Source: a virus. Taken from it: a DNA stretch of 23,767 nt. Shown one piece after another: positions 1 through 20,919 of the stretch (position 1 is the stretch's first letter; each line of letters starts with the position of its first letter). The DNA is taken from positions 1 through 23,767 of the IMG/VR virus record IMGVR_UViG_3300009537_000180, one strand, 5' to 3'. The notes beneath the pieces were generated by a model. That model ran no database searches, had not been told where the DNA came from, and was given only the letters and a program-made list of their open reading frames with translations. A program made the position numbers and the translations under genes.

Positions 1-477
1 AACCTGTCCTGGGTCAACCTGTCCCAGGCCAACCTGTACGGGGCCGACCTATTCGGGGCCAACCTTTCCGGGACCAACCTGTCCCGGGCCAACCTTTCCG
101 GGGCCGACCTGGGCCGGGCCAACCTTTCCGGGGCCGACCTGTCCCGGACCAACCTGTCCCGGACCAACCTGTCCTGGGTCAACCTTTCCAGGGCCTACCT
201 GTCCTGGGCCAACCTGTCCGGGGCCAACCTGTACGGGGCCAGTTGGCACAAAGACATCACCATCAACCGCCGTCCTCTTTTCATCGACGGCTTGCTTTGG
301 CCGGTATGGATATTGGACAAGCACATGCAGATCGGGTGCGAACTTCACAGGCTCGATGAATGGGCGGCCTTCGATGATCGCCGTATCGCACAAATGGGAA
401 ATTCATCGGCCATCAAAGCCTGGAACGCAAATAAAGCCGCATTACTGGCGCTCGCAAGGGCTAACAAACGAGGATGA
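1..477 (+). CDS. Pentapeptide-repeat protein, C-terminal part (5' truncated by window edge)
   Basis: The frame is open from base 1 and stops at 475-477. The first 80 codons are sixteen uninterrupted five-residue units of the form (N/D/Y)-L-x-x-(A/T/V), mostly NLSGA, NLSRA or NLSWV. This is the signature of pentapeptide-repeat proteins, which fold as a right-handed quadrilateral beta-helix. Some family members mimic DNA or bind topoisomerases, but no specific role can be read here. A non-repetitive tail of about 78 residues follows, rich in Trp and Leu near its start ([14 protein letters not shown]) and ending in a basic Ala/Lys helix. The start codon lies outside the window. The repeat DNA is itself a 15-bp tandem repeat and creates a Gly/Pro-rich shadow frame on the other strand. 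Confidence 0.85.
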
Positions 478-2814: not shown

Positions 2815-3092
2815 GAAGATTTAAACGACAGCTATTTTTTTTATCGGTTTCTATTAGTATATTAATTTGTTCTATTCTTTTTTTCCCTTGGTTCCGTCCC
2901 CGTGAAACTGTTTGCGGTATTATGGGGAGATGGGAAACCAGAGAAAGGGGATGGAAACGGATATTTGGCCGCTTAGGAGCGGCCTTTTTTGATGCCACAA
3001 TACACAATGATAATGAAAAATGTCATGTTATTTATGAGATGGAAGAAGCCGCAAGAGGCCAACTTTATATAGTGAGTAGGGAACGTAGATGA
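2811..3092 (+). CDS. Small membrane-anchored phage protein (93 aa), GTG start
   Basis: The GTG at 2811 forms a GTGA overlap with the previous stop and follows AGGAG. Residues 7-27 are a hydrophobic anchor or signal (LFFLSVSISILICSILFFPWF). The rest is basic, with RETVCGIMGRW and a C-terminal CHVIYEMEEAARGQLY. From memory, phage mini-proteins with an 'ETVSGxxGRW ... HC...EE.AR..LY' pattern recur, so I think the frame is real even though a terminator-like hairpin lies inside it at 2968-2991. The 3' end overlaps the next ATG by 4 bases. The function is unknown. Confidence 0.6.
   Translation: MRRFKRQLFFLSVSISILICSILFFPWFRPRETVCGIMGRWETRERGWKRIFGRLGAAFFDATIHNDNEKCHVIYEMEEAARGQLYIVSRERR
2968..2991 (+). 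terminator. Terminator-like hairpin inside a coding region
   Basis: A perfect 6-bp GC-only stem (GGCCGC / GCGGCC) with a 6-base loop TTAGGA is followed immediately by six T residues, the classic intrinsic-terminator layout. It encodes GRLGAAFF within the 93-residue gene. It may terminate or attenuate transcription arriving from the GC-rich block, or be coincidental. Confidence 0.45.
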
Positions 3093-3382
3093 AGAAAACA
3101 AAACTTCCTAATTGCTGTGGAGCAAGTATTATTCACGCAATAAAAAGTATGACAGGAGAAGATTTTGAAGAAGAATTAGTAAACGTATTAGCAGATGAAC
3201 ACAACCCCGATAATAATTATGGGGAGTGGGAGGACGTTCTTATTATTATAATTGTTAATGACTATCAACAAGATTTTGCAGAATATTATCTTAAAAAATA
3301 TGGGTTTACAGAGGTTGAAGAAATTCCGGGGGTACATGGGGGGAGGATATATTTATGGATTAAGAAAATTATCTTAGATTAG
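3089..3382 (+). CDS. P-x-CCG family paralogue 1 (97 aa)
   Basis: First of three neighbouring related proteins. The N-terminus is MKKTKLPNCCGASIIHAI and the C-terminal half contains LIIIIVNDYQQDFAEYYLKK, GFTEVEEI and a hydrophobic strand (GGRIYLWI). The same order, P-x-C-C-G, then hydrophobic strand plus Asn and Gln, then helix, then G-F-x-E-V, then Gly-rich turn and strand, recurs in the genes at 3392 and 3825. The strand-helix-strand ending is reminiscent of GNAT-like folds, but no catalytic motif is visible. The ATG at 3089 overlaps the upstream stop. Confidence 0.75.
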   Translation: MKKTKLPNCCGASIIHAIKSMTGEDFEEELVNVLADEHNPDNNYGEWEDVLIIIIVNDYQQDFAEYYLKKYGFTEVEEIPGVHGGRIYLWIKKIILD

Positions 3383-3391
3383 GAGAAAAAT

Positions 3392-3688
3392 ATGAGACAC
3401 CAACAATATCCCTGCTGTTGTGGGGCACGAATTATTTACGATTTAGGAGGAACGTGGTGCACTCTCGGGGGCAACCTGAATGCGCTCCCTAAAGAAAAAT
3501 TTAATAGGGAAATTGAAAGGCTGAAAAAAGAATATTTTAAAGAAAATATGTTTCTCATTCTTATAAATGGCTCCCAAAAGAAGAGTTATAATCAAATGCT
3601 ACTGGATGCCGGATTTAAAGAGGTGAATAGGGTTGTAGGGGGGCATGGATATCTTTTACATCTTTATTGTTGGAATAGAGATGTATAA
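3392..3688 (+). CDS. P-x-CCG family paralogue 2 (98 aa)
   Basis: The ATG at 3392 follows TAGGAGAAAAAT. The start MRHQQYPCCCGARIIYDL and the later LILINGSQKKSYNQ, LLDAGFKEV and GGHGYLLHLY align with the flanking paralogues at 3089 and 3825. Three consecutive Cys (CCC) occur where the others have two. This is an unrecognised phage family. The conserved adjacent cysteines near the N-terminus suggest metal binding, a thiol-based role or a structural turn; I cannot choose between them. TAATG couples it to the next small gene. Confidence 0.75.
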   Translation: MRHQQYPCCCGARIIYDLGGTWCTLGGNLNALPKEKFNREIERLKKEYFKENMFLILINGSQKKSYNQMLLDAGFKEVNRVVGGHGYLLHLYCWNRDV

Positions 3689-3828
3689 TGCACACAATCA
3701 AAGAATTAGAAAAAACAATTATTCTTCTATCAAAAGATAAAGAAAAGAGAACAGACAAGGAAAGGCTTTTTGTTAAGAAAGTATTAAAAGAGATTTTAAT
3801 AGAAAGACTAAAAGAGAGAAAGAAATGA
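3688..3828 (+). CDS. Highly charged helical mini-protein (46 aa)
   Basis: The ATG at 3688 overlaps the upstream TAA and its own TGA overlaps the next ATG (ATGA at 3825), so it is held by two translational overlaps. The product begins MHTIKELEKTIILLSKDKEK and is almost half Lys, Arg and Glu, a continuous amphipathic helix. It sits between two members of the P-x-CCG family and may be a partner or a spacer gene. No family is recognised. Confidence 0.6.
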   Translation: MHTIKELEKTIILLSKDKEKRTDKERLFVKKVLKEILIERLKERKK

Positions 3829-4274
3829 AACACTTACAAGTGCCTTATTGTTGCGGATTAGATTTTCTATATGGCTTCTATGCCGATCACGGTAACGGAG
3901 ATAGTAGTATTAATAAGGGATCACAGGCAAGTCCTCCTTGGGCCGCCATCACTACAGAAGATGTTGAAAAATGGATAGTAGAAGAAATTGAAAATACTAT
4001 CAGAGTAGGTGTACGGAAATATGGCACCCAGCCTTTGTCCGTGGATCGCAGCATGCGCCCTTTAAAACTTTTAATTATTAATACCTCCCAAAAACAAAAA
4101 GGAATGGACAAGCTTCTAGAGAAACTAGGTTTTAACGAAATCTTCAAAACTAAAAATCCAAAAACCAGGGGCTGGCTTTATTTTTATTTTAAAGATGTAC
4201 AAGTAGATATACAGAAAAAAATAGAAGAAATAATTATGACAAGGAGAGCAAAGATGTTGAGACGGGCATTATGA
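3825..4274 (+). CDS. P-x-CCG family paralogue 3 (149 aa)
   Basis: Longest member of the tandem family. The N-terminus MKHLQVPYCCGLDFLYGF is followed by an insertion (about residues 22-85) absent from the other two, then LKLLIINTSQKQKGMDKLLE, KLGFNEI and GWLYFYF, which match the shared C-terminal block. A basic helical tail (IQKKIEEIIMTRRAKMLRRAL) extends past the common core. The stop overlaps the ATG of the gamma-glutamylcyclotransferase-like gene, so this family is physically coupled to the amide-ligase cluster. The function is unknown. Confidence 0.75.
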   Translation: MKHLQVPYCCGLDFLYGFYADHGNGDSSINKGSQASPPWAAITTEDVEKWIVEEIENTIRVGVRKYGTQPLSVDRSMRPLKLLIINTSQKQKGMDKLLEKLGFNEIFKTKNPKTRGWLYFYFKDVQVDIQKKIEEIIMTRRAKMLRRAL

Positions 4275-4660
4275 AAGTATTCGTATACGGGTCATTAAAA
4301 CAAGGATTTGGAAATCACGATGTTATGTCCCAAATAGGGGCAGTTTTTATAAGTACCGCTATTACAGAACATACAAGATTTGATTTAGTCACTTTAGGGC
4401 ACTTCCCGGGGCTAGTAACTGGTAAATATCAAGTTGAGGGAGAAGTATATGAAGTAGATGCAGATGCTCTCAGAACTCTCGACCACTTTGAAGGTTCTCC
4501 TACATTCTATAAAAGAAAAGAAATACCAGTGCTCCTGATAAAAGAAAAGGCATTAAAAGAAACATTCGCATATGTTTATATATTAAATCGGAAAGTTACC
4601 AATAAGATTGTTGAAACGTTTTCAGACTCTTTGAAAACCATCAAAAAATGGGTCGAGTAA
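4271..4660 (+). CDS. Gamma-glutamylcyclotransferase-like (AIG2/GGCT fold) protein
   Basis: The 129-residue product opens with VFVYGSLKQG (residues 3-12), the hallmark substrate-binding loop of the GGCT/AIG2 fold. It contains the expected acidic catalytic position in DHFEGSPTFYKR (Glu74), plus EGEVYEVD and a late Y-V-Y strand. Such enzymes release 5-oxoproline from gamma-glutamyl amines or trim gamma-glutamyl amides. Its length is typical. In this operon it probably edits or removes a gamma-glutamyl group made by the downstream ligases. Known: fold and reaction type of the family. Inferred: the substrate. It starts by ATGA overlap with the preceding gene. Confidence 0.88.
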   Translation: MKVFVYGSLKQGFGNHDVMSQIGAVFISTAITEHTRFDLVTLGHFPGLVTGKYQVEGEVYEVDADALRTLDHFEGSPTFYKRKEIPVLLIKEKALKETFAYVYILNRKVTNKIVETFSDSLKTIKKWVE

Positions 4661-4661
4661 G

Positions 4662-5300
4662 ATGCCTAAAGTCTTTATTGTAGAGAACTACACTTTCCAG
4701 TATACCAGGATGTTTCAAGAGAAAGGGTGGGAAGTAATAGATAAGTTAACTGAAGCAGACTTAATTCAGTTTACGGGGGGAGAAGATGTCTCCCCTTCTC
4801 TTTATGGGCAATACCCACATCCCCGAACATCAAGCTCCTTACAGAGAGACTTACGAGAAAAAATAATCTTTGAAAGAGCTAAAGCCTTATTTATCCCGAT
4901 GGCTGGAATATGCAGGGGGGCTCAATTTCTCAATGTAATGTGTGGTGGCAGCCTATGGCAACATGTTGAGGGGCACGGTCAACCCCATATGGCATATGAC
5001 CATATACATAAAGTAGAAATAAAGGTAACATCCACACACCACCAAATGATGATACCCCCGAATAATAAGAACTTATACTGCACCCTACTCACTGCAAACG
5101 AAAACAAAATAAAACAAAAAGGTTTTTCTTTAAGATGTAAAAATAAAGAAAAAGATATAATTTCAGTATTTAATAAAGTTGACATAGAAGCTATTTTTTA
5201 TTGGGACTCCCAAATATTATGCTTTCAACCACATCCAGAATTTTGTAAGCAAGAACAACTCTCTACACTTTATTTTGAATATTTAAGCTGGCTGATATAA
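4662..5300 (+). CDS. Class I glutamine amidotransferase-like peptidase/hydrolase (C26 / PuuD-like)
   Basis: The 212-residue product contains FTGGEDVSPSLYG (about 38-50), typical of gamma-glutamyl-GABA hydrolase-like enzymes. The nucleophile elbow is GICRGAQFLN with Cys84, and QPHPEF supplies His191 and Glu193, so a complete Cys-His-Glu triad is visible. Relatives hydrolyse gamma-glutamyl amide bonds or deliver ammonia from glutamine. No synthase domain is fused, so stand-alone hydrolysis of a gamma-glutamyl conjugate is more likely. A 7-bp hairpin (GGGGAGA/TCTCCCC, 4777-4795) lies in its coding sequence. It sits 1 base after the previous stop with a weak ribosome-binding site. Confidence 0.88.
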   Translation: MPKVFIVENYTFQYTRMFQEKGWEVIDKLTEADLIQFTGGEDVSPSLYGQYPHPRTSSSLQRDLREKIIFERAKALFIPMAGICRGAQFLNVMCGGSLWQHVEGHGQPHMAYDHIHKVEIKVTSTHHQMMIPPNNKNLYCTLLTANENKIKQKGFSLRCKNKEKDIISVFNKVDIEAIFYWDSQILCFQPHPEFCKQEQLSTLYFEYLSWLI

Positions 5301-5311
5301 AGGAAACATGA

Positions 5312-6439
5312 ATGTGTGGGTTAGTTGGAGTTTTTGGTGATTTGGATGTTAAACTAGAAGAGGTATTTGAAGACCTCTTACAAATGGATGTAATACGCGG
5401 GTGGGAGTCAACGGGTGTTGCTGTTGTTCCTAGAGATGCTAAGAAAGTATCAATTATAAAGGATATCTATGTACCAATCTACATCATACAAGATGTAAAC
5501 TATATTCGAGCAAAAGCGGGGCAAAACCTTCTATTAATGGGGCATAATAGGGCAGCTACTTATGGTAAGGTAGAGAAACGAAATGCACACCCTTTTCAAA
5601 TAAAAAATATTACACTGTCGCATAATGGTACGCTTATCCCGGCTACCCCCCTTCCAAATTTAGATAAATTTGAAACCGACAGTGAAGCTATTACAGACTC
5701 AATTGCAAACATAGGTATAGAAGAAACATGGCCGCTCCTAAACGGTGCTGCTACTATTACTTTTTGGGATAATAAAGTAAAAACACTTAATATCGCCTCT
5801 AATGGTAAACGACCATTAAACTATGTATTCTTAAAAGATAATAAAGCTATCATGTGGGCATCAGAAGATTGGATGTTAGATGGGGTAATAAAACGACATA
5901 AATTAGAAGTTGAAAAGAGAAAGGATGAGGGATACTTATGGTATATTCGAACAAATACTGTTGGAATTTTCTCTTTTAAAAAAGAAAAAATAGTTTCAAA
6001 GTTTCCTCGTTTAAAAGAATATAAAAGTAGTTTTATTCAGGGTGGATTTAGGAACCAATACGATAATAATTATGGATTAAATGATGACGGTTGGTCAGAG
6101 GGATGGTATGAAATTACTAAAGAAGAAAAAGAAACGGATAATGTAGTGGACTTACAACAAAAATTTAAAGATAAGCGGAAACTTCTGGAAAAAGACGATA
6201 AAACTTTGAAGTTAAAAGCGATAGCTACAGATAAAGATGATCCAAATATTGCAAAAAATTTAATGTCTTTAATGGAATTTAGGTTGAGATACACAAATTG
6301 CGTTCTATGTAAAGAGTCTATTTTCGAAGAGTTTGAAACAGCAATCATCTTAGATAAGCATTCCGCTATTTGTAAGGCTTGTACAGGAATTGCGATAGCA
6401 AACAACATCCCCCTCACTGCAAACGGACTACTTGAATGA
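5312..6439 (+). CDS. Class II (Ntn-type) glutamine amidotransferase with C-terminal CxxC...CxxC module
   Basis: Met1 is followed by Cys2 in MCGLVGVFG, the autoprocessed N-terminal nucleophile of class II amidotransferases (GlmS, AsnB and PurF type). Supporting motifs are RGWESTGVAVV, GHNRAATYG, AHPF, LSHNGTL and TDSEAI, in family order across residues 30-130. These release ammonia from glutamine. No synthetase or isomerase domain follows. Instead, a Lys/Glu-rich linker leads to a C-terminal C-x2-C ... C-x2-C pair (Cys330, 333, 354, 357), a likely zinc ribbon. Ammonia or glutaminase activity would feed the adjacent amidoligases. ATG 5312 is fixed by the need for Cys2. The stop overlaps the next ATG. 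Confidence 0.9.
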   Translation: MCGLVGVFGDLDVKLEEVFEDLLQMDVIRGWESTGVAVVPRDAKKVSIIKDIYVPIYIIQDVNYIRAKAGQNLLLMGHNRAATYGKVEKRNAHPFQIKNITLSHNGTLIPATPLPNLDKFETDSEAITDSIANIGIEETWPLLNGAATITFWDNKVKTLNIASNGKRPLNYVFLKDNKAIMWASEDWMLDGVIKRHKLEVEKRKDEGYLWYIRTNTVGIFSFKKEKIVSKFPRLKEYKSSFIQGGFRNQYDNNYGLNDDGWSEGWYEITKEEKETDNVVDLQQKFKDKRKLLEKDDKTLKLKAIATDKDDPNIAKNLMSLMEFRLRYTNCVLCKESIFEEFETAIILDKHSAICKACTGIAIANNIPLTANGLLE

Positions 6440-7245
6440 CATTAAAAATTGGCGCTGATCCTGAACTATTCTTAAAGAAGAAAGGAGTTTTCTACTCCGG
6501 TTTTGGTGTTATACCAGGGTCTAAATCCCTCCCTTATCCAGTTAATAGGGGGGCGGTTCAGGTTGACGGTATGGCGGTAGAGTTTAATATTCTCCCTGCT
6601 GAAAATAGGGAAAGCTTTTCTGAAAATATTCAAGAAGTATTGAAAATATTAAGAAATATGGTACCAGTAGACTTCGATTTAGCAATAGAGTCGGTTGCTT
6701 ATTTTGAAAAAGAATATTTTAAAAGTCAACCGAGAGAGTGTAAACTTTTAGGGTGCAACCCCGACTATAATGCCTATACAGAGGAAATGAATATCCCCCC
6801 AAACCCAAGAAAACCAATAAGAACAGCAGCGGGGCATATTCACTTAGGGTGGGGAGAAGGAATTGAACCTAACAGGGGCCATTTCAATAGGTGTTTTACG
6901 CTTACCAAGCAATTAGATTTTTTATTAGGTATTCCTAGTGTGGTGCTGGACAGGGGAGAAGAACGTCGGAAGATGTATGGACAAGCAGGCTGTTTCCGCC
7001 CAAAACAATATGGTATGGAGTATCGTGTTCTTAGTAATTTTTGGTTAAAAGACACCAAACTAATTGAGTGGGTATTTGACCAAGCTAAACGAGCATTTGA
7101 ACTTCTTACAGAAGAGGGAGTTAATCTACATAAAGAACTTGGAGATGTTGCAAGAGATATTATAAATAAAAATAATAAAGAAGGAGCAGCTAATCTTTTG
7201 CAAAAGGAACTAAAGGGGTACGTGAATATTGAGGCACTTACATGA
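6436..7245 (+). CDS. phiEco32-type COOH-NH2 ligase (amidoligase, glutamine-synthetase-like fold)
   Basis: The 269-residue product carries the motif set of the phage COOH-NH2 ligase type 2 family: GADPELFL (5-12), VQVDGMAVEFNILPAE (about 41-56), AAGHIHLGWG (about 132-141) and a long basic signature with MYGQAGCFRPKQYGMEYR and LSNFWL (about 180-203). The conserved acidic residues and His would bind metal and ATP as in glutamine synthetase. The reaction is ATP-dependent joining of a carboxylate to an amine. The family was predicted by comparative genomics (Iyer, Aravind and colleagues) to act in peptide or protein modification together with ATP-grasp, GAT-II and GGCT enzymes, which is the neighbourhood seen here. 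ATGA overlaps occur on both sides. Confidence 0.88.
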   Translation: MTLKIGADPELFLKKKGVFYSGFGVIPGSKSLPYPVNRGAVQVDGMAVEFNILPAENRESFSENIQEVLKILRNMVPVDFDLAIESVAYFEKEYFKSQPRECKLLGCNPDYNAYTEEMNIPPNPRKPIRTAAGHIHLGWGEGIEPNRGHFNRCFTLTKQLDFLLGIPSVVLDRGEERRKMYGQAGCFRPKQYGMEYRVLSNFWLKDTKLIEWVFDQAKRAFELLTEEGVNLHKELGDVARDIINKNNKEGAANLLQKELKGYVNIEALT

Positions 7246-7892
7246 AAAATTCAACAAATAATGAACGATTTTACGACTTAAATCATGCAGATATGTATCT
7301 AAGACATACAGTAATTAGGGTGGAGAGTATTCCTGCCTATATTACAGCAATTGGGGGGAGTAAAAAAGCAGGCTTTTCTATCGAATATGTTGAGCTGGGG
7401 GATATACACAATAAATTAATTACCGCTTTAGGACTAAAAACGGTAGACCTTAGCCCCCTTCCATTAGGTATGATGAACTACTTTCCAGGAAAGGGTAACT
7501 TACGAACAGTAATTATAAGCCGTATACCCGTAAGGCGATGGAAAGTGGGGTTAGACACAAGAAATATGTTAATCTCAAGTATTGCGGGAGATCGCCATTC
7601 TATATTCCTTGAGCCCGGCCAAGTTATCCTATCCGCAGATTTAAAAAATACAATTATGGGAAAATTTCCAACATATAAAGAAGCAATTAATAGCTTAGAG
7701 AGCAGCTCTGCATATAGCTCTGTTGCTTTTAACCGGCATTTCGCTATAAAAACGAGAGGAAAGGGTAAGAATGAACTTATCTATTATAAATTTGATACAC
7801 CAATAGGAATATGCGGGCCAACTAAACCACTACTTTCTCCCGAATTTATGTTTTTAAAAGAACATCTTGATGAGGTACTGAAACATGAATGA
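7242..7892 (+). CDS. Conserved-looking unknown protein embedded in amidoligase cluster (216 aa)
   Basis: The ATG at 7242 overlaps the upstream stop and the gene ends 8 bases inside the next one, so it is tightly coupled within the ligase operon. Visible features are an N-terminal NHADMYLRHTVIRVESIPAY, then LSPLPLGMMNYFPGKGNLRT, the basic motif SRIPVRRWKVGLDTRNM, and a Ser-rich stretch (SLESSSAYSSVAFNRHFAIK). The 'LG.(M)N ... R.P.R.WK.GL...N' pattern is, from memory, shared with other phage hypotheticals near ATP-grasp genes, but I cannot name a domain. It may be the modification substrate, a specificity subunit or an unrecognised enzyme. No catalytic motif is clear. Confidence 0.8.
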   Translation: MKNSTNNERFYDLNHADMYLRHTVIRVESIPAYITAIGGSKKAGFSIEYVELGDIHNKLITALGLKTVDLSPLPLGMMNYFPGKGNLRTVIISRIPVRRWKVGLDTRNMLISSIAGDRHSIFLEPGQVILSADLKNTIMGKFPTYKEAINSLESSSAYSSVAFNRHFAIKTRGKGKNELIYYKFDTPIGICGPTKPLLSPEFMFLKEHLDEVLKHE

Positions 7893-8958
7893 TGATAAGA
7901 ATATCTACCCCACTATCAGAGAGCTTATTGGGGGCAGGAAAAAATTTAAAAAGGGGCAAGATATAGGGATAGAAATTGAAATCGAGGGGCGGAGAATATG
8001 GGACACATGGCCCGGTAATAATACTTGGCATATTGTTGAAGATGGGTCATTAAGGGGGGAAGAGGCCGCAGAATATATTCTTGCCCACCCAATCCATATT
8101 GATGAAATACCTGAAGCTCTAGAAGAACTAGAAGAGCTTCTTGAACCCGTAAAAATCGAACTAAGCGACCGCTGTGGGGTGCATATACATATCAATATAC
8201 AAGATATAACATTTAAAGAGTTGTTTAATTTTGCATTCTTATACTTAGTTATGGAAGATGTCCTTGTTAGTTATTGCGGGGCAAGCAGGGAAGGAAACCT
8301 ATTCTGCCTTAAAGCAAAAGATGCAGAATACCTAATAGACAAACTCATAGAAACTAAAAAAGAAAATGAATTGGGGCCCTTAAAAAATCAAGAAGAGAAT
8401 ATTCGTTATGCCGCTATCAACTTTGCATCCATATTTAAACATGGTTCTCTAGAATTTAGAGCATTAAAAACTCCAAAAGATTTTTCAGAGATTAATACTT
8501 GGGCTCGGATGCTCTGGCAGGTAAAAGAAGCCTCTGGTAAATACAACACCCCTATAGAGATAATTGAGGATTGTTCTTTACTTGGGATGCGTGGGTTTAT
8601 TATCAAAGTTATGGGAGACTTCACAAAAACTTTGGTAAGAAATGTACCAGAAATAGAAAATAAAATTAGAACAGGCATACGTTTAATGCAAGATGTAGCT
8701 TACACAAAATCTATTAAACGTCCTGTAATTAAAAGTGATTTAGTAAAACCAAAAAAAGTGTATAAGCCTGGCGCGGTCATAGTAGAAGATAATATATTCC
8801 TAGAAGAGCCCGAAGCCCCAGAAGCCGACGAAGCTGTGTTTCAAGAACCCGTAGAAGGGGAACAGATTAGAGGTGGTCATAGGGTTAACATCATGCGAGG
8901 ATACCAGGCGGCCCTATACCGCGACCGCGAACTAAGAGCCATAGCCGAAGAAGAGTAA
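7885..8958 (+). CDS. Amidoligase_2-family protein (357 aa)
   Basis: Motifs in order: DIGIEIEIEGRRIW (about 25-38), VEDGSLRG (about 50-57), CGVHIHINI (about 98-106), EDVLVSYCG then REGNLFCL (about 125-145), and YAAINFASIFKHGSLEFRAL (about 175-194). This matches the amidoligase family related to glutamine synthetase, where 'E.E.E', 'D.S', 'G.H.H' and 'EFR' supply metal and ATP ligands. It is a second, distinct ligase beside the COOH-NH2 ligase at 6436. The C-terminal 100 residues are acidic and Pro-rich (EEPEAPEADEAVFQEP), probably a flexible tail. TAATG couples it to the ATP-grasp gene. Confidence 0.88.
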   Translation: MNDDKNIYPTIRELIGGRKKFKKGQDIGIEIEIEGRRIWDTWPGNNTWHIVEDGSLRGEEAAEYILAHPIHIDEIPEALEELEELLEPVKIELSDRCGVHIHINIQDITFKELFNFAFLYLVMEDVLVSYCGASREGNLFCLKAKDAEYLIDKLIETKKENELGPLKNQEENIRYAAINFASIFKHGSLEFRALKTPKDFSEINTWARMLWQVKEASGKYNTPIEIIEDCSLLGMRGFIIKVMGDFTKTLVRNVPEIENKIRTGIRLMQDVAYTKSIKRPVIKSDLVKPKKVYKPGAVIVEDNIFLEEPEAPEADEAVFQEPVEGEQIRGGHRVNIMRGYQAALYRDRELRAIAEEE

Positions 8959-9686
8959 TGTTATATTTATATTCTTATATGGGGGGGTCAAACGGGGCAA
9001 AAGAAGTGGCTAAAAAATTAAAAGTTAATCGTATTAAACATAAAAATAGTAGCTTTAAAGGAGGCAGGAATAAGATAGTAATAAACTGGGGGGCCACTGA
9101 AGTCCCAAAAGAAGTGGGCAAGTGCACAATAATCAACACCCCTGAAGCTGTTAAAGAGGTGAGTAATAAACTATTATTCTTTGAAAAATTAAACGGTAAG
9201 AAACTCACCCCCACCTATACAAGAGATGCGAGGGTGGCGGAAGAGTGGTTAAAGGGGGGCTATCATGTACTATGCCGTACCCTCTTACGTGCTAGTGGGG
9301 GGCGGGGGATTGTTTTAGATAAGATAGTAGAAGCGAAATTATATGTACGCTATATAGCTAAAAAAGAAGAATATCGGGTACATATTTTCAGGGGGCAGGT
9401 CATTGATGTTCAAAGAAAAGCACGAAAGCTTGATGAAGAACAACCTAACTGGAAAATTAGAAACTTAGAAGGGGGGTTTGTTTATGTCAGAGAAGGGTTT
9501 AATATCCCTGAATGTGTTATTGATGTAGCTAAGAAAACATTTAAACATTTTAATTTAGACTTTGGGGCTATAGATATAATTTATACAGCCAATAAAAATA
9601 GGGCTTTCGCCCTTGAGATTAATACTGCCCCAGGTTTAGAGGGGCAAACAGTTGAGAGTTATGTAACAGCTTTTAAGGCGTTATAA
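8958..9686 (+). CDS. ATP-grasp family carboxylate-amine ligase (242 aa)
   Basis: The product ends in an ATP-grasp core: substrate or ATP-lid residues in NKLLFFEKLN, VLCRTLLRASGGRGIVL (Gly-rich loop, about 109-125), EEYRVHIFRGQVIDVQRKAR (about 136-156), FGAIDIIY and the metal-binding ALEINTAPGLEG (about 222-232). These enzymes activate a carboxylate as acyl-phosphate for attack by an amine. The N-terminus MLYLYSYMGGSNGAKEVAKK with NWGATEVP resembles the short pre-ATP-grasp domain seen in phage versions. It is the last gene of the cluster. Its DNA contains long G runs (7 G at 8981, and 6 G plus 5 G at 9297-9308). Confidence 0.88.
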   Translation: MLYLYSYMGGSNGAKEVAKKLKVNRIKHKNSSFKGGRNKIVINWGATEVPKEVGKCTIINTPEAVKEVSNKLLFFEKLNGKKLTPTYTRDARVAEEWLKGGYHVLCRTLLRASGGRGIVLDKIVEAKLYVRYIAKKEEYRVHIFRGQVIDVQRKARKLDEEQPNWKIRNLEGGFVYVREGFNIPECVIDVAKKTFKHFNLDFGAIDIIYTANKNRAFALEINTAPGLEGQTVESYVTAFKAL

Positions 9687-19320: not shown

Positions 19321-19599
19321 ATGACAACTTGGCAAGATATTGTTAATGGTTCTTTTGAACTATTTGGTGCCCCTTTTATCTTTTTAAGTGTAATAAAACT
19401 TTATAAGGATAAACTCGTAAAAGGGGTATCTTGGGTAGGTGTGGGGTTCTTTGCTAGTTGGGGGTATTGGAACTTATATTTTTACCCACACTTAAATCAG
19501 TGGGCTTCCTTTTTTGGTGGTATAGCGATTGTTTTATGTAATACAATATGGTTAATACAATTATTGTATTACATAAAGTATCCTGGGGGGAAGAAATGA
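19321..19599 (+). CDS. Three-helix membrane protein (92 aa)
   Basis: Immediately follows the exonuclease stop. Three hydrophobic spans are visible (about 12-26, 38-54 and 60-82). Conserved-looking features are KLYKDKLVKGVSWVGVGFFA, WGYWNLYFYPHLNQWASFFG and CNTIWLIQLLYY. The 'K.YK.K.VKGVSW' turn after the first helix is reminiscent of the PQ-loop of SemiSWEET or PQ-loop transporters, which also have three helices in about 90 residues, but Pro-Gln is absent. I regard this as similarity worth testing, not an assignment. It overlaps the next gene as ATGA. Confidence 0.75.
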   Translation: MTTWQDIVNGSFELFGAPFIFLSVIKLYKDKLVKGVSWVGVGFFASWGYWNLYFYPHLNQWASFFGGIAIVLCNTIWLIQLLYYIKYPGGKK

Positions 19600-20036
19600 A
19601 AACAATCTATCTCATTGGTTCTCTTAGGAACCCGTTTGTTCCTACTTTAGCGAATAAACTACGAGAAGAAGGATATGAAGTATTTGATGACTGGTATGCT
19701 CCTGGCCCGGAAGCTGATGACTATTGGAAAGAATATTCACAACAGCGGGGGCAGACTTATAAAGAGGCTCTCAATTCTTGGAGCGGAAAACATATATTTG
19801 AGTTCGATAAGCATCATCTTGATCGTGCCGGTATTGGTGTACTTGTTCACCCTGCTGGTAAGAGCGGTCATCTTGAACTAGGATACCTGATAGGACAGGA
19901 GAAGCCGGGAATTATTTTTTGGCCAGAAGGTGAACCCCCGCAAGATAGGTGGGATGTTATGGTTCAGTTTGCTCAGACCGCTTTCTCATACGAAGAACTT
20001 GTAAAAGAATTAAAGGGGATTGCTTTTGTACCGTAA
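19596..20036 (+). CDS. Nucleoside 2-deoxyribosyltransferase-like protein (146 aa)
   Basis: The ATG at 19596 overlaps the membrane-protein stop and follows GGGGGGAAG; the frame is open further upstream to 19548, but that start is inside the previous gene. Motifs are IYLIGSLRN (4-12), YEVFDDWY (27-34), a VLVHP strand and AGKSGHLELGYLIG with catalytic-type Glu94. This matches the nucleoside 2-deoxyribosyltransferase superfamily, which cleaves or exchanges the N-glycosidic bond of (deoxy)nucleosides. Phage members may serve nucleotide salvage or NAD-like metabolite turnover. It is followed by GMP reductase, so purine metabolism is the most economical context. Confidence 0.82.
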   Translation: MKTIYLIGSLRNPFVPTLANKLREEGYEVFDDWYAPGPEADDYWKEYSQQRGQTYKEALNSWSGKHIFEFDKHHLDRAGIGVLVHPAGKSGHLELGYLIGQEKPGIIFWPEGEPPQDRWDVMVQFAQTAFSYEELVKELKGIAFVP

Positions 20037-20919
20037 ACTCGATTTCGATGATGTATTAATTGTTCCCCGATCCTCCACTGTTACATCTAGAGCTGATGTG
20101 GTGTTAGAGAAAACCTTTACTATTGGCCCCGATGAAACAACTCTAAGGTGTGTCCCTATTATCGCAGCGAATATGCAAAACATTGGTACTGTTTCAGTAG
20201 CTAGTATTTTACATAAATATGAGATGTTAACCGCCTTAGTTAAAAATACCCTTAATACCCTACCTACCACCTTCCCTGCTTTTAACACATACGGTATGGA
20301 AGGGGAGGTGGAAGATTTACAGTTTATATGTTTAGATGTTGCAAATGGCTATTTATCTTCTTTTGTGGAGCGGGTAAAACAAGTTAGAGAGAAATACCCA
20401 TTTTCTGTTATTATGGCAGGAAATGTAGTGACGACGGAAGGAGTAGAAAACCTTGCTAAAGCAGGCGCAGACATTATTAAAGTCGGCTTGGGTAGCGGGA
20501 GCGCGTGCACTACAAGAATTAAAACAGGAGTTGGTTACCCCCAGCTATCAGCAGTTCTTGAGTGTTCCGCTGCTACAAGGCATCATGGCGTTTATCTATG
20601 TTCTGATGGTGGGCATAGGAACCCTGGTGATATCGCTAAGTCTTTTGCTGCTGGCGCTGATTTTGTTATGCTTGGAGGGATGCTATCTGGCACTGATGAA
20701 ACTGGTGCAGTTTTCTACGGAAACGCTTCAAGGATGGCGCAGGGGACATTAGAAAAATACCGCGCAGAAGAGGGGCAAGTTATAGAAACCCCTTATAAAG
20801 GTAGCTTGGATGATGTGGTTCAAGATATTCTAGGAGGCCTTCGCTCGGCTTGCACCTATGTTGGGGCTAGAAACCTAGACGAGTTTAAACAGTTTTCGAG
20901 AATAATTCAGGTGAAATAA
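20026..20919 (+). CDS. guaC: GMP reductase (IMPDH/GuaC family), 297 aa, TTG start
   Basis: The start chosen is TTG 20026 (MYRKLDFDDVLIVPRSS) because AAAGGGGA lies 6 bases upstream; TTG 20020 is in frame but abuts that site. Diagnostic stretches are VPIIAANM, CLDVANGY, AGNVVTTEGVENLAKAGADI, GSGSACTTRIKTGVGYPQLS with nucleophile Cys161, SDGGHRNPGDIAKSFAAGAD, FVMLGGMLSG and GGLRSACTYVGA. These follow the order of E. coli GuaC, which I recall as about 347 residues, so this copy is some 50 residues shorter, with trimmed loops and C-terminus. It converts GMP to IMP and ammonia with NADPH. Finding it in a phage, beside a deoxyribosyltransferase-like gene, suggests purine-pool rebalancing. Confidence 0.92.
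   Translation: MYRKLDFDDVLIVPRSSTVTSRADVVLEKTFTIGPDETTLRCVPIIAANMQNIGTVSVASILHKYEMLTALVKNTLNTLPTTFPAFNTYGMEGEVEDLQFICLDVANGYLSSFVERVKQVREKYPFSVIMAGNVVTTEGVENLAKAGADIIKVGLGSGSACTTRIKTGVGYPQLSAVLECSAATRHHGVYLCSDGGHRNPGDIAKSFAAGADFVMLGGMLSGTDETGAVFYGNASRMAQGTLEKYRAEEGQVIETPYKGSLDDVVQDILGGLRSACTYVGARNLDEFKQFSRIIQVK

Follow-up and report, generated by a model that had tools for sequence, protein, structure and literature searches.

Podoviruses of the PSA-HP1/RIO-1 type carry a seven-gene putative "peptidoglycan modification" cassette, for which three unusual linkages and a logic of synthesis plus degradation have already been proposed in print (PMC5498523). The same reading has been repeated for a LUZ24-like phage (PMC11945000), and PMC10580990, where it cites Iyer 2009, gives the same module that name; superinfection exclusion, too, has been proposed for the cassette in earlier papers. 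The initial annotation of the DNA analyzed here had inferred a multi-step pathway of synthesis and editing and had credited Iyer et al. with predicting amide- or peptide-linked tags. The former is anticipated by the PSA-HP1/RIO-1 work, and on the latter, the citing papers, in the passages that bear on the module, give cell-wall modification against superinfection, not tags on proteins. The product of the cassette has been guessed at for more than 10 years, and we found no demonstration of it in the literature.

The locus and its described relatives

The seven-gene set in the window, by which we mean the whole stretch of 23,767 nucleotides analyzed, represents one more copy of a podovirus amidoligase cassette that is already known (phiEco32/LUZ24/PA11/RIO-1 type), not a new system. 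Its seven ORFs occupy positions 4271-9686, all on the + strand, and are tightly packed (-8 to +11 bp), with successive gaps of +1, +11, -4, -4, -8 and -1 bp; their place and order are as first annotated:

4271..4660, +, GGCT (GGACT/AIG2-like gamma-glutamyl cyclotransferase), 129 aa
4662..5300, +, C26/class I GATase-like gamma-glutamyl hydrolase, 212 aa
5312..6439, +, stand-alone class II (N-terminal-nucleophile) glutamine amidotransferase with a C-terminal Cys4 zinc-ribbon-like tail, 375 aa
6436..7245, +, COOH-NH2 ligase type 2, of the glutamine synthetase/GCS-like fold family, 269 aa
7242..7892, +, phrog_11055 core protein, between the two amidoligases, 216 aa
7885..8958, +, Amidoligase_2 (GCS-like) ligase, 357 aa
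8958..9686, +, ATP-grasp peptide ligase of the RimK/MptN/MvdD-type assemblage, 242 aa

The frames are not a product of chance, since homologues of every one sit at the equivalent place in other phages, numbering from tens to hundreds. The same cassette, its order mostly kept, lies upstream of primase/helicase in Zobellviridae, LUZ24-like phages and phiEco32, and the window matches these relatives in both gene order and site. The neighborhood is conserved across phage families: the class II GATase, COOH-NH2 ligase, 216-aa protein, Amidoligase_2 and ATP-grasp co-occur, in largely the same order, in at least 91 of 93 loci. The cassette occurs in podoviruses infecting Pseudomonas, Escherichia, Vibrio and Klebsiella, among others, therapy-candidate LUZ24-like phages included, and it is essentially viral: across 84,980 species genomes of bacteria and archaea, a search gave only 10 matches, all on MAG contigs. 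A DNA-level search of phage records with the cluster found no match, the sequences being too divergent. Within the window, an Rfam scan found no match, promoter-like sites were no more numerous than in shuffles, and the PADLOC defense models gave one weak partial match only (15 bits). The window also carries IMPDH-like and deoxyribosyltransferase-like genes.

The described clusters differ in membership and arrangement. In the PA11/TC6/O4 cluster (Zobellviridae, Paundecimvirus), the C26, class II GATase, COOH-NH2 ligase, 216-aa, amidoligase and ATP-grasp genes follow one another as in the window, with 28-51% protein identity, but a protein of about 310 aa is present and GGCT is absent from the stretch. 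PSA-HP1 ORFs 40-47 form a single seven-gene module that includes GGCT, GATase, COOH-NH2 ligase, a further amidoligase and ATP-grasp and shares with the window the synthesis-plus-degradation logic and the replication-side location; there, however, the ~310-aa protein is present and profiles found neither C26 nor the 216-aa protein (the record is labeled UNVERIFIED and may hold frame errors), whereas the window has the latter two and appears to lack the former. In phiEco32 (Kuravirus), gp77-gp86 comprise GGCT, ATP-grasp, class II GATase, amidoligase and COOH-NH2 ligase beside primase/helicase, and gp85 is a 216-aa-type protein (E = 1.1e-5). The link to this phage drawn in the initial annotation is thus real, the set being the same except for C26, of which no match was found, although the class II GATase and ATP-grasp come after the amidoligase and GGCT comes last. 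Inside that cluster lies gp79, an inhibitor of the host RNA polymerase. The LUZ24-like cluster (UFV-P2, tf, Ab22; PMC3890496) has COOH-NH2 ligase, a 186-189-aa protein, amidoligase, class II GATase, ATP-grasp and GGCT, but it is without C26 and its GATase follows the amidoligase. Planctomycete phage ZRK32 (PMC10945688) shares GATase, amidoligase, ATP-grasp (there named glutathione synthase) and GGCT; its gene order is LUZ24-like, and the genes were read as auxiliary to nitrogen metabolism.

Enzyme families and active sites

Profile searches of Pfam and PHROG placed the cassette families, and the catalytic residues first pointed out in the window proteins are kept in their homologues. Across the families, such residues are almost invariant (41-148 homologues each), and three ATP-dependent ligase families thus stand in one module, active sites intact, with three that handle glutamine or gamma-glutamyl groups. 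Gene identity, intact active sites and near-invariant co-occurrence and order are direct observations.

The COOH-NH2 ligase matches PF14395 (1e-8, above the cut-off) and phrog_3815 (2e-80), and residues D8, E10, Q42, D44, E49, H134, H136, R177, E195, R197 and S200 are invariant in 124-126 homologues. Its relatives occur in 316 phage records; a scan of viral contigs gave no match with a single sequence and worked with an alignment-based query. Amidoligase_2 matches PF12224 (2e-12, 47.8 bits) and phrog_7469 (2e-63), with E30, E32, E34, H100, H102, R135, E190 and R192 present in 129-130 of 130 homologues. Neither amidoligase, nor the 216-aa protein, gave a useful match in a sequence search of the PDB.

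The ATP-grasp protein matches phrog_2599, "ribosomal protein S6 glutaminyl transferase", at 5e-70, and its K71, E138, R140 and K154 (148/148) and D206, E220 and N222 (147/147) are kept in every homologue. No Pfam model scored above its cut-off, the R2K clade model R2K_2 (PF18299) reaching 14.7 bits against a required 26.2; the NCBIfam matches to MvdC, MptN and MvdD are sub-threshold at ~1e-6, the RimK model TIGR00768 gives 17.3 bits (cut-off 143), and S6-glutamate ligases in the PDB match at only ~1e-3. Judged by sequence, the protein's nearer kin are peptide ligases of the RimK/MptN/MvdD type, with the R2K clade farther off. A plasmid search found no relative of it.

The class II GATase matches PF13522 (GATase_6; 6.8e-14), and Pfam found no synthase domain in it. 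The proposed nucleophile Cys2 is kept in 94 of 95 homologues, alongside Arg80 and Asn105 (each 115/116), Gly106 (116/116) and Asp123 (116/117), while the Cys4 motif C330/C333/C354/C357 is present in 111-112 of 118. The C26 protein (PF07722, Peptidase_C26, 8.5e-21; phrog_7218, 7e-52) has solved relatives in 3fij (Lin1909), 7d4r and related entries, and its triad holds up as first described, with Cys84 and His191 each found in 99 and Glu193 in all of 101 homologues. Its likeness is to PuuD-type class I GATase-like hydrolases, again as far as sequence goes, and the matches to PuuD-like gamma-glutamyl-GABA hydrolases are below the cut-off. GGCT (PF06094, GGACT, 3e-23; phrog_2520) retains Tyr6 (41/41), Gly7 (40/41) and Glu74 (42/43); the Tyr-Gly of the annotated Tyr-Gly-Ser-Leu motif and Glu74 are therefore borne out, and the Ser is mostly Thr in homologues. 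The C26 gene occurs in 83 of the 93 loci and GGCT, an optional member, in 33; together with ATP-grasp, these genes shift position or go missing in some relatives.

The 216-aa protein and a usual extra member

Between the amidoligases lies a protein of 216 aa without a Pfam match, placed only in phrog_11055, a family of "unknown function" (2.5e-24), which is present in 91 of the 93 loci. The COOH-NH2 ligase is followed by it in 90 and Amidoligase_2 follows it in 91, and the three genes often overlap. Its G76 (120), R94 and R98 (118 each) and G103 (117) are conserved among 121 homologues. The AlphaFold2 model is confident (mean pLDDT 91.3, pTM 0.88), and a PDB fold search with it found no match at E <= 0.001; the best matches, to HEX-1, eIF5A and a tandem Tudor protein, have SH3-like barrels in common and are nonsignificant (E >= 0.018, TM ~0.2). 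The protein would thus have a confidently predicted fold without a solved relative. An eIF5A/EF-P-like acceptor role was rejected because the single loop lysine, K101, is not invariant (K in 59 and R in 28 of 121).

Another protein, of about 310 aa, with invariant Cys and Arg and a near-invariant His, is found in 82 of the 93 loci. It was not found in the window, where the best ORF gave E = 0.18 in a sensitive (--max) search, and since the family is very divergent, a remote homologue could have escaped. A fold search with its model found no match; its profile hit designed PPR proteins in the PDB through 18-residue repeats, which we judged spurious, and comparison gave no support to the Cys-Cys small proteins as its homologues. 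Common as it is in relatives, it is not a published defining feature of the cassette. The near-invariant triad of COOH-NH2 ligase, 216-aa protein and Amidoligase_2, the ~310-aa protein as a usual and GGCT as an optional member, and the conserved Cys4 motif are additions of the present analysis, and the core gene list, including two proteins annotated as hypothetical (216 and ~310 aa), points to the genes and protein mixture worth testing.

Possible functions

Active sites this strongly conserved, at a cost of about 5 kb of genome, mean that the cassette does something valuable. We tentatively favor a cytosolic, early amide-ligation pathway with a glutamate-containing peptide as substrate, most plausibly a peptidoglycan precursor, so that the new wall would differ from the host wall. 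Early in infection, the class II GATase would hydrolyze glutamine and so provide glutamate or ammonia; the three ligases (the two GCS-like ones, with the 216-aa protein as their common partner, and the ATP-grasp), with chemistry as predicted from their families, would spend ATP on making amide or isopeptide bonds, two or three in number, on the peptide; and the C26 hydrolase, plus GGCT where present, would strip gamma-glutamyl units that are wrong, surplus or derived from the host. The figure of three distinct bonds in the initial annotation comes from counting ligases. The altered wall might then bring superinfection exclusion or changed lysis. The hosts of the listed relatives are diderm bacteria, which possess peptidoglycan. 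The early gene products listed for phage SU10 include ATP-grasp, GATase and YtfP/GGCT, all of them detected by mass spectrometry (PMC4281155). On the other hand, the diderm host range may only mirror phage phylogeny, a lytic cycle leaves little time for wall replacement, and a soluble metabolite or protein target is equally compatible with the genes. Inspection by eye found no obvious signal peptides on the cassette proteins, so only cytosolic precursors would be within reach. Profiles found no wall-specific enzyme likeness among them; in comparison with the MurT/GatD peptidoglycan amidation system, a MurT-like Mur ligase was not found among the cassette proteins (Pfam, PHROG). We know of no experiment showing a modified muropeptide.

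It is unlikely, though worth serious thought, that proteins of the host or the phage are the targets instead, the ligases decorating them with Glu, Gln or amine units or with short isopeptide tags, much as RimK modifies ribosomal protein S6, and the hydrolases trimming these additions. The RimK-, MptN- and MvdC/MvdD-like profile of the ATP-grasp fits ribosomal-peptide or glutamate ligases, the early expression of relatives fits host takeover, and phage R2K ATP-grasps have been proposed to alter host proteins (PMC4431377, PMC7824862), but the present one falls below the Pfam cut-off for R2K, no conserved substrate protein is evident except possibly the 216-aa protein, and three hydrolase families speak for gamma-glutamyl small-molecule chemistry. 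Such chemistry could equally serve a soluble product, a gamma-glutamyl amide (glutathione-, gamma-glutamyl-polyamine- or amino-acid-amide-like) made or recycled to aid phage production, which we also consider improbable yet deserving of attention. A GCS-like ligase with an ATP-grasp parallels GshA/GshB logic, C26 has its sub-cut-off PuuD-like matches, GGCT acts on gamma-glutamyl amino acids, and ZRK32 was reported to boost growth on nitrate or ammonium, with cassette genes credited (PMC10945688); that attribution is correlative, however, two amidoligases and a dedicated 216-aa protein exceed the needs of such a pathway, and none with the same set was found in the cellular genomes searched.

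More speculative still, and in our view quite improbable, is a phage-only, carrier-protein-based peptide conjugation system, in which the 216-aa protein would be carrier or acceptor for an isopeptide-linked chain built by both amidoligases and the ATP-grasp, and the ~310-aa Cys/Arg/His protein, or Cys-Cys small proteins possibly replacing it in the window, would move the chain to its final target. Hypermodification of phage DNA with an amino acid or amide might be suggested by the adjoining replication genes and the IMPDH-like and deoxyribosyltransferase-like genes, but no match to a family of base-hydroxymethylating or DNA-modifying enzymes turned up among the scanned window proteins, we know of no report of modified DNA in cassette-bearing phages, and we hold it very improbable. 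That auxiliary genes with nothing in common came to lie together by chance is scarcely credible, the mobility of GGCT, C26 and ATP-grasp notwithstanding, and is refuted for the core, whose co-occurrence extends to 44 of the 45 ATP-grasp-anchored loci with enough flank, all 44 holding COOH-NH2 ligase, class II GATase and Amidoligase_2.

Layout and setting of the cassette

The seven-gene cluster that the initial annotation had described was confirmed in the window, an IMG/VR virus record of 23,767 bases, and its family assignments agree with Pfam and PHROGs profile placement for six of the seven proteins; the 216-aa protein belongs to phrog_11055, whose function is unknown in PHROGs. The cassette and the genes preceding it are arranged as follows.

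3089-4274, + strand: three tandem small proteins (97, 98 and 149 aa) of one family, in which Cys-Cys, Asn, Gln and Gly-Phe motifs are conserved
4271-9686, + strand: seven ORFs, for a gamma-glutamyl cyclotransferase-like protein (GGCT), a class I GATase-like gamma-glutamyl hydrolase (C26), a class II glutamine amidotransferase (GATase II), a COOH-NH2 ligase, the 216-aa protein, Amidoligase_2 and ATP-grasp, spaced by +1, +11, -4, -4, -8 and -1 bp

On the 3' side lie genes for a metallophosphoesterase, a Toprim/DnaB-type primase-helicase and a sigma-70 region 2 protein and, further on, a second metallophosphoesterase, a family A DNA polymerase and exonucleases. The polymerase is closest to those of oyster-associated and Vibrio phages (43-46% identity) and, because the two oyster-associated phages whose taxonomy was seen are both Zobellviridae, the window is probably a Zobellviridae-like phage fragment. 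Shortly 5' of the tandem small proteins, a strong terminator-like hairpin (2967-2984, + strand; 7 pairs, 6 of them G-C) is followed by TTTTTT.

Conservation among phages

With tblastn, relatives of the COOH-NH2 ligase were found in 316 phage records and those of Amidoligase_2 in 211, and the gene run beside the primase/helicase is common to annotated Klebsiella, Pseudomonas, Salinivibrio, Pseudoalteromonas and oyster-associated phages. Two scans of IMG/VR with alignment-based queries gave ~160 loci; once identical COOH-NH2 ligases were removed and flanks of no less than ~4 kb on the 5' side and 6 kb on the 3' side were required, the set comprised 93 loci, the window included, in which genes were called with profiles from seed homologues. 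GATase II, ATP-grasp and Amidoligase_2 were present in 93/93, as was the COOH-NH2 ligase as counting anchor; next in frequency came C26 (83/93), a protein of ~310 aa (82/93) and GGCT (33/93), although such counts are not independent observations since the loci share kinship. The 216-aa protein was found in at least 91/93, a lower bound because the profile misses the Ab22 protein at that position. In 45 loci anchored on ATP-grasp instead, each flanked by 7 kb or more on both sides, the COOH-NH2 ligase, GATase II and Amidoligase_2 occurred together in 44 and the 216-aa protein in 43.

The gene run and, for the most part, its order recur across the 93 loci and several phage groups, the neighbourhood conservation that the initial annotation had proposed to check. 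The steadiest neighbours are the COOH-NH2 ligase followed by the 216-aa protein (90 loci) and the latter followed by Amidoligase_2 (91), their genes typically overlapping (median 8 bp); the genes share a single strand in every locus, an arrangement common in phages. In L013, L019, L024, L033, L034 and other loci, ATP-grasp is duplicated or displaced to a position 5' of the GATase II or 310-aa gene, the usual copy after Amidoligase_2 being kept or missing. The cassette is essentially viral, as 84,980 bacterial and archaeal species, represented by one genome each, gave only 10 matches, all on MAG contigs. Eight of these were inspected again in detail, and no fewer than six proved to hold several cassette genes.

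The window copy is a new, divergent member, its ligases sharing roughly 30-50% identity with relatives, and appears to lack one usual gene: no homologue of the 310-aa protein, encoded 5' of C26 in most relatives (e.g., L004:4337-5269, L056:1586-2467 and many others), was found within the window. This family is highly divergent, yet the retention of Cys44 and Arg128 (51/51) and His181 (48/51) suggests a thiol enzyme; its model (pLDDT 78.8) had no PDB match. In place of this protein the window has the tandem small proteins, directly upstream of the cassette; their family, present in 24/93 loci, is enriched where the 310-aa protein is absent (7/11 vs. 17/82 loci; Fisher p 0.0056, a value that ignores locus relatedness).

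Active sites and the proposed pathway

The initial annotation had named loss of catalytic residues among homologues as evidence against its reading; the predicted catalytic residues are instead nearly invariant in GGCT (Glu74), C26 (Cys84/His191/Glu193), GATase II (Cys2, with Arg80/Asn105/Gly106/Asp123 of the glutamine site), both amidoligases (acidic, His and Arg residues) and ATP-grasp (Lys71, Glu138, Arg140, Lys154, Asp206, Glu220 and Asn222), from which we infer that selection maintains all these families as enzymes. The nearest relatives of ATP-grasp are RimK, MptN, MvdC/MvdD and Ddl ligases, every score being below the family cut-off. The C-terminus of GATase II (6299-6382, + strand) has a Cys4 motif (C330, C333, C354, C357), kept in 111-112 of 118 homologues and probably a zinc ribbon. 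No synthase domain was found in GATase II, so its ammonia or glutamate would have to serve another protein. The 216-aa family gave a confident AlphaFold2 model (mean pLDDT 91.3, pTM 0.88), for which a PDB search yielded no relative at E<=0.001; its matches in the viral library, a Salinivibrio CW02 protein among them, are best taken to belong to this family itself, and the conserved G76, R94, R98 and G103 suggest a binding surface rather than a catalytic one.

The interpretation of the cluster as an amide or isopeptide ligation and editing system was supported in part, the system itself being already described (PMC5498523, PMC11945000), and the window cassette is almost certainly identical in kind. 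In RIO-1-like podoviruses, it has been described as a seven-gene "peptidoglycan modification cassette" proposed to form three unusual linkages and including degradation genes, with RIO-1, phiEco32, 7-11, PA11, tf, MR299-2, LUZ24, PaP3 and CW02 as carriers (PMC5498523); our profiles place the set in both phiEco32 and the RIO-1-like PSA-HP1. The account is repeated for a LUZ24-like phage, with the added idea of readying the wall for lysis (PMC11945000), while a passage in PMC10580990 credits Iyer 2009 with cell-wall modification against superinfection in phiEco32. In phage ZRK32 the set was taken as nitrogen-metabolism genes (PMC10945688), and the genes are also listed in PMC3890496 and PMC6209634. 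The proteomics of phage SU10 counts ATP-grasp, GATase and YtfP/GGCT, all detected by mass spectrometry, among the early products (PMC4281155).

Our tentative reading is that the pathway would act in the cytosol early in infection, GATase II and the ligases forming amide or isopeptide bonds on a peptide that contains glutamate, and C26 and GGCT editing them, with peptidoglycan precursors the most plausible substrate. Modification of proteins and the making of a soluble gamma-glutamyl product are credible but less probable alternatives, about equal to each other, and the computed results agree with all three readings.

Elsewhere in the window, a nucleoside deoxyribosyltransferase-like gene overlaps one resembling IMP dehydrogenase/GMP reductase (299 aa; 19548-20919, + strand), an unusual nucleotide pair for a phage. 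At 1-241 (+ strand), 16 copies of the 15-bp tandem repeat AACCTGTCCGGGGCC, reading Asn-Leu-Ser-Gly-Ala, look like a pentapeptide-repeat protein interrupted at the contig end.
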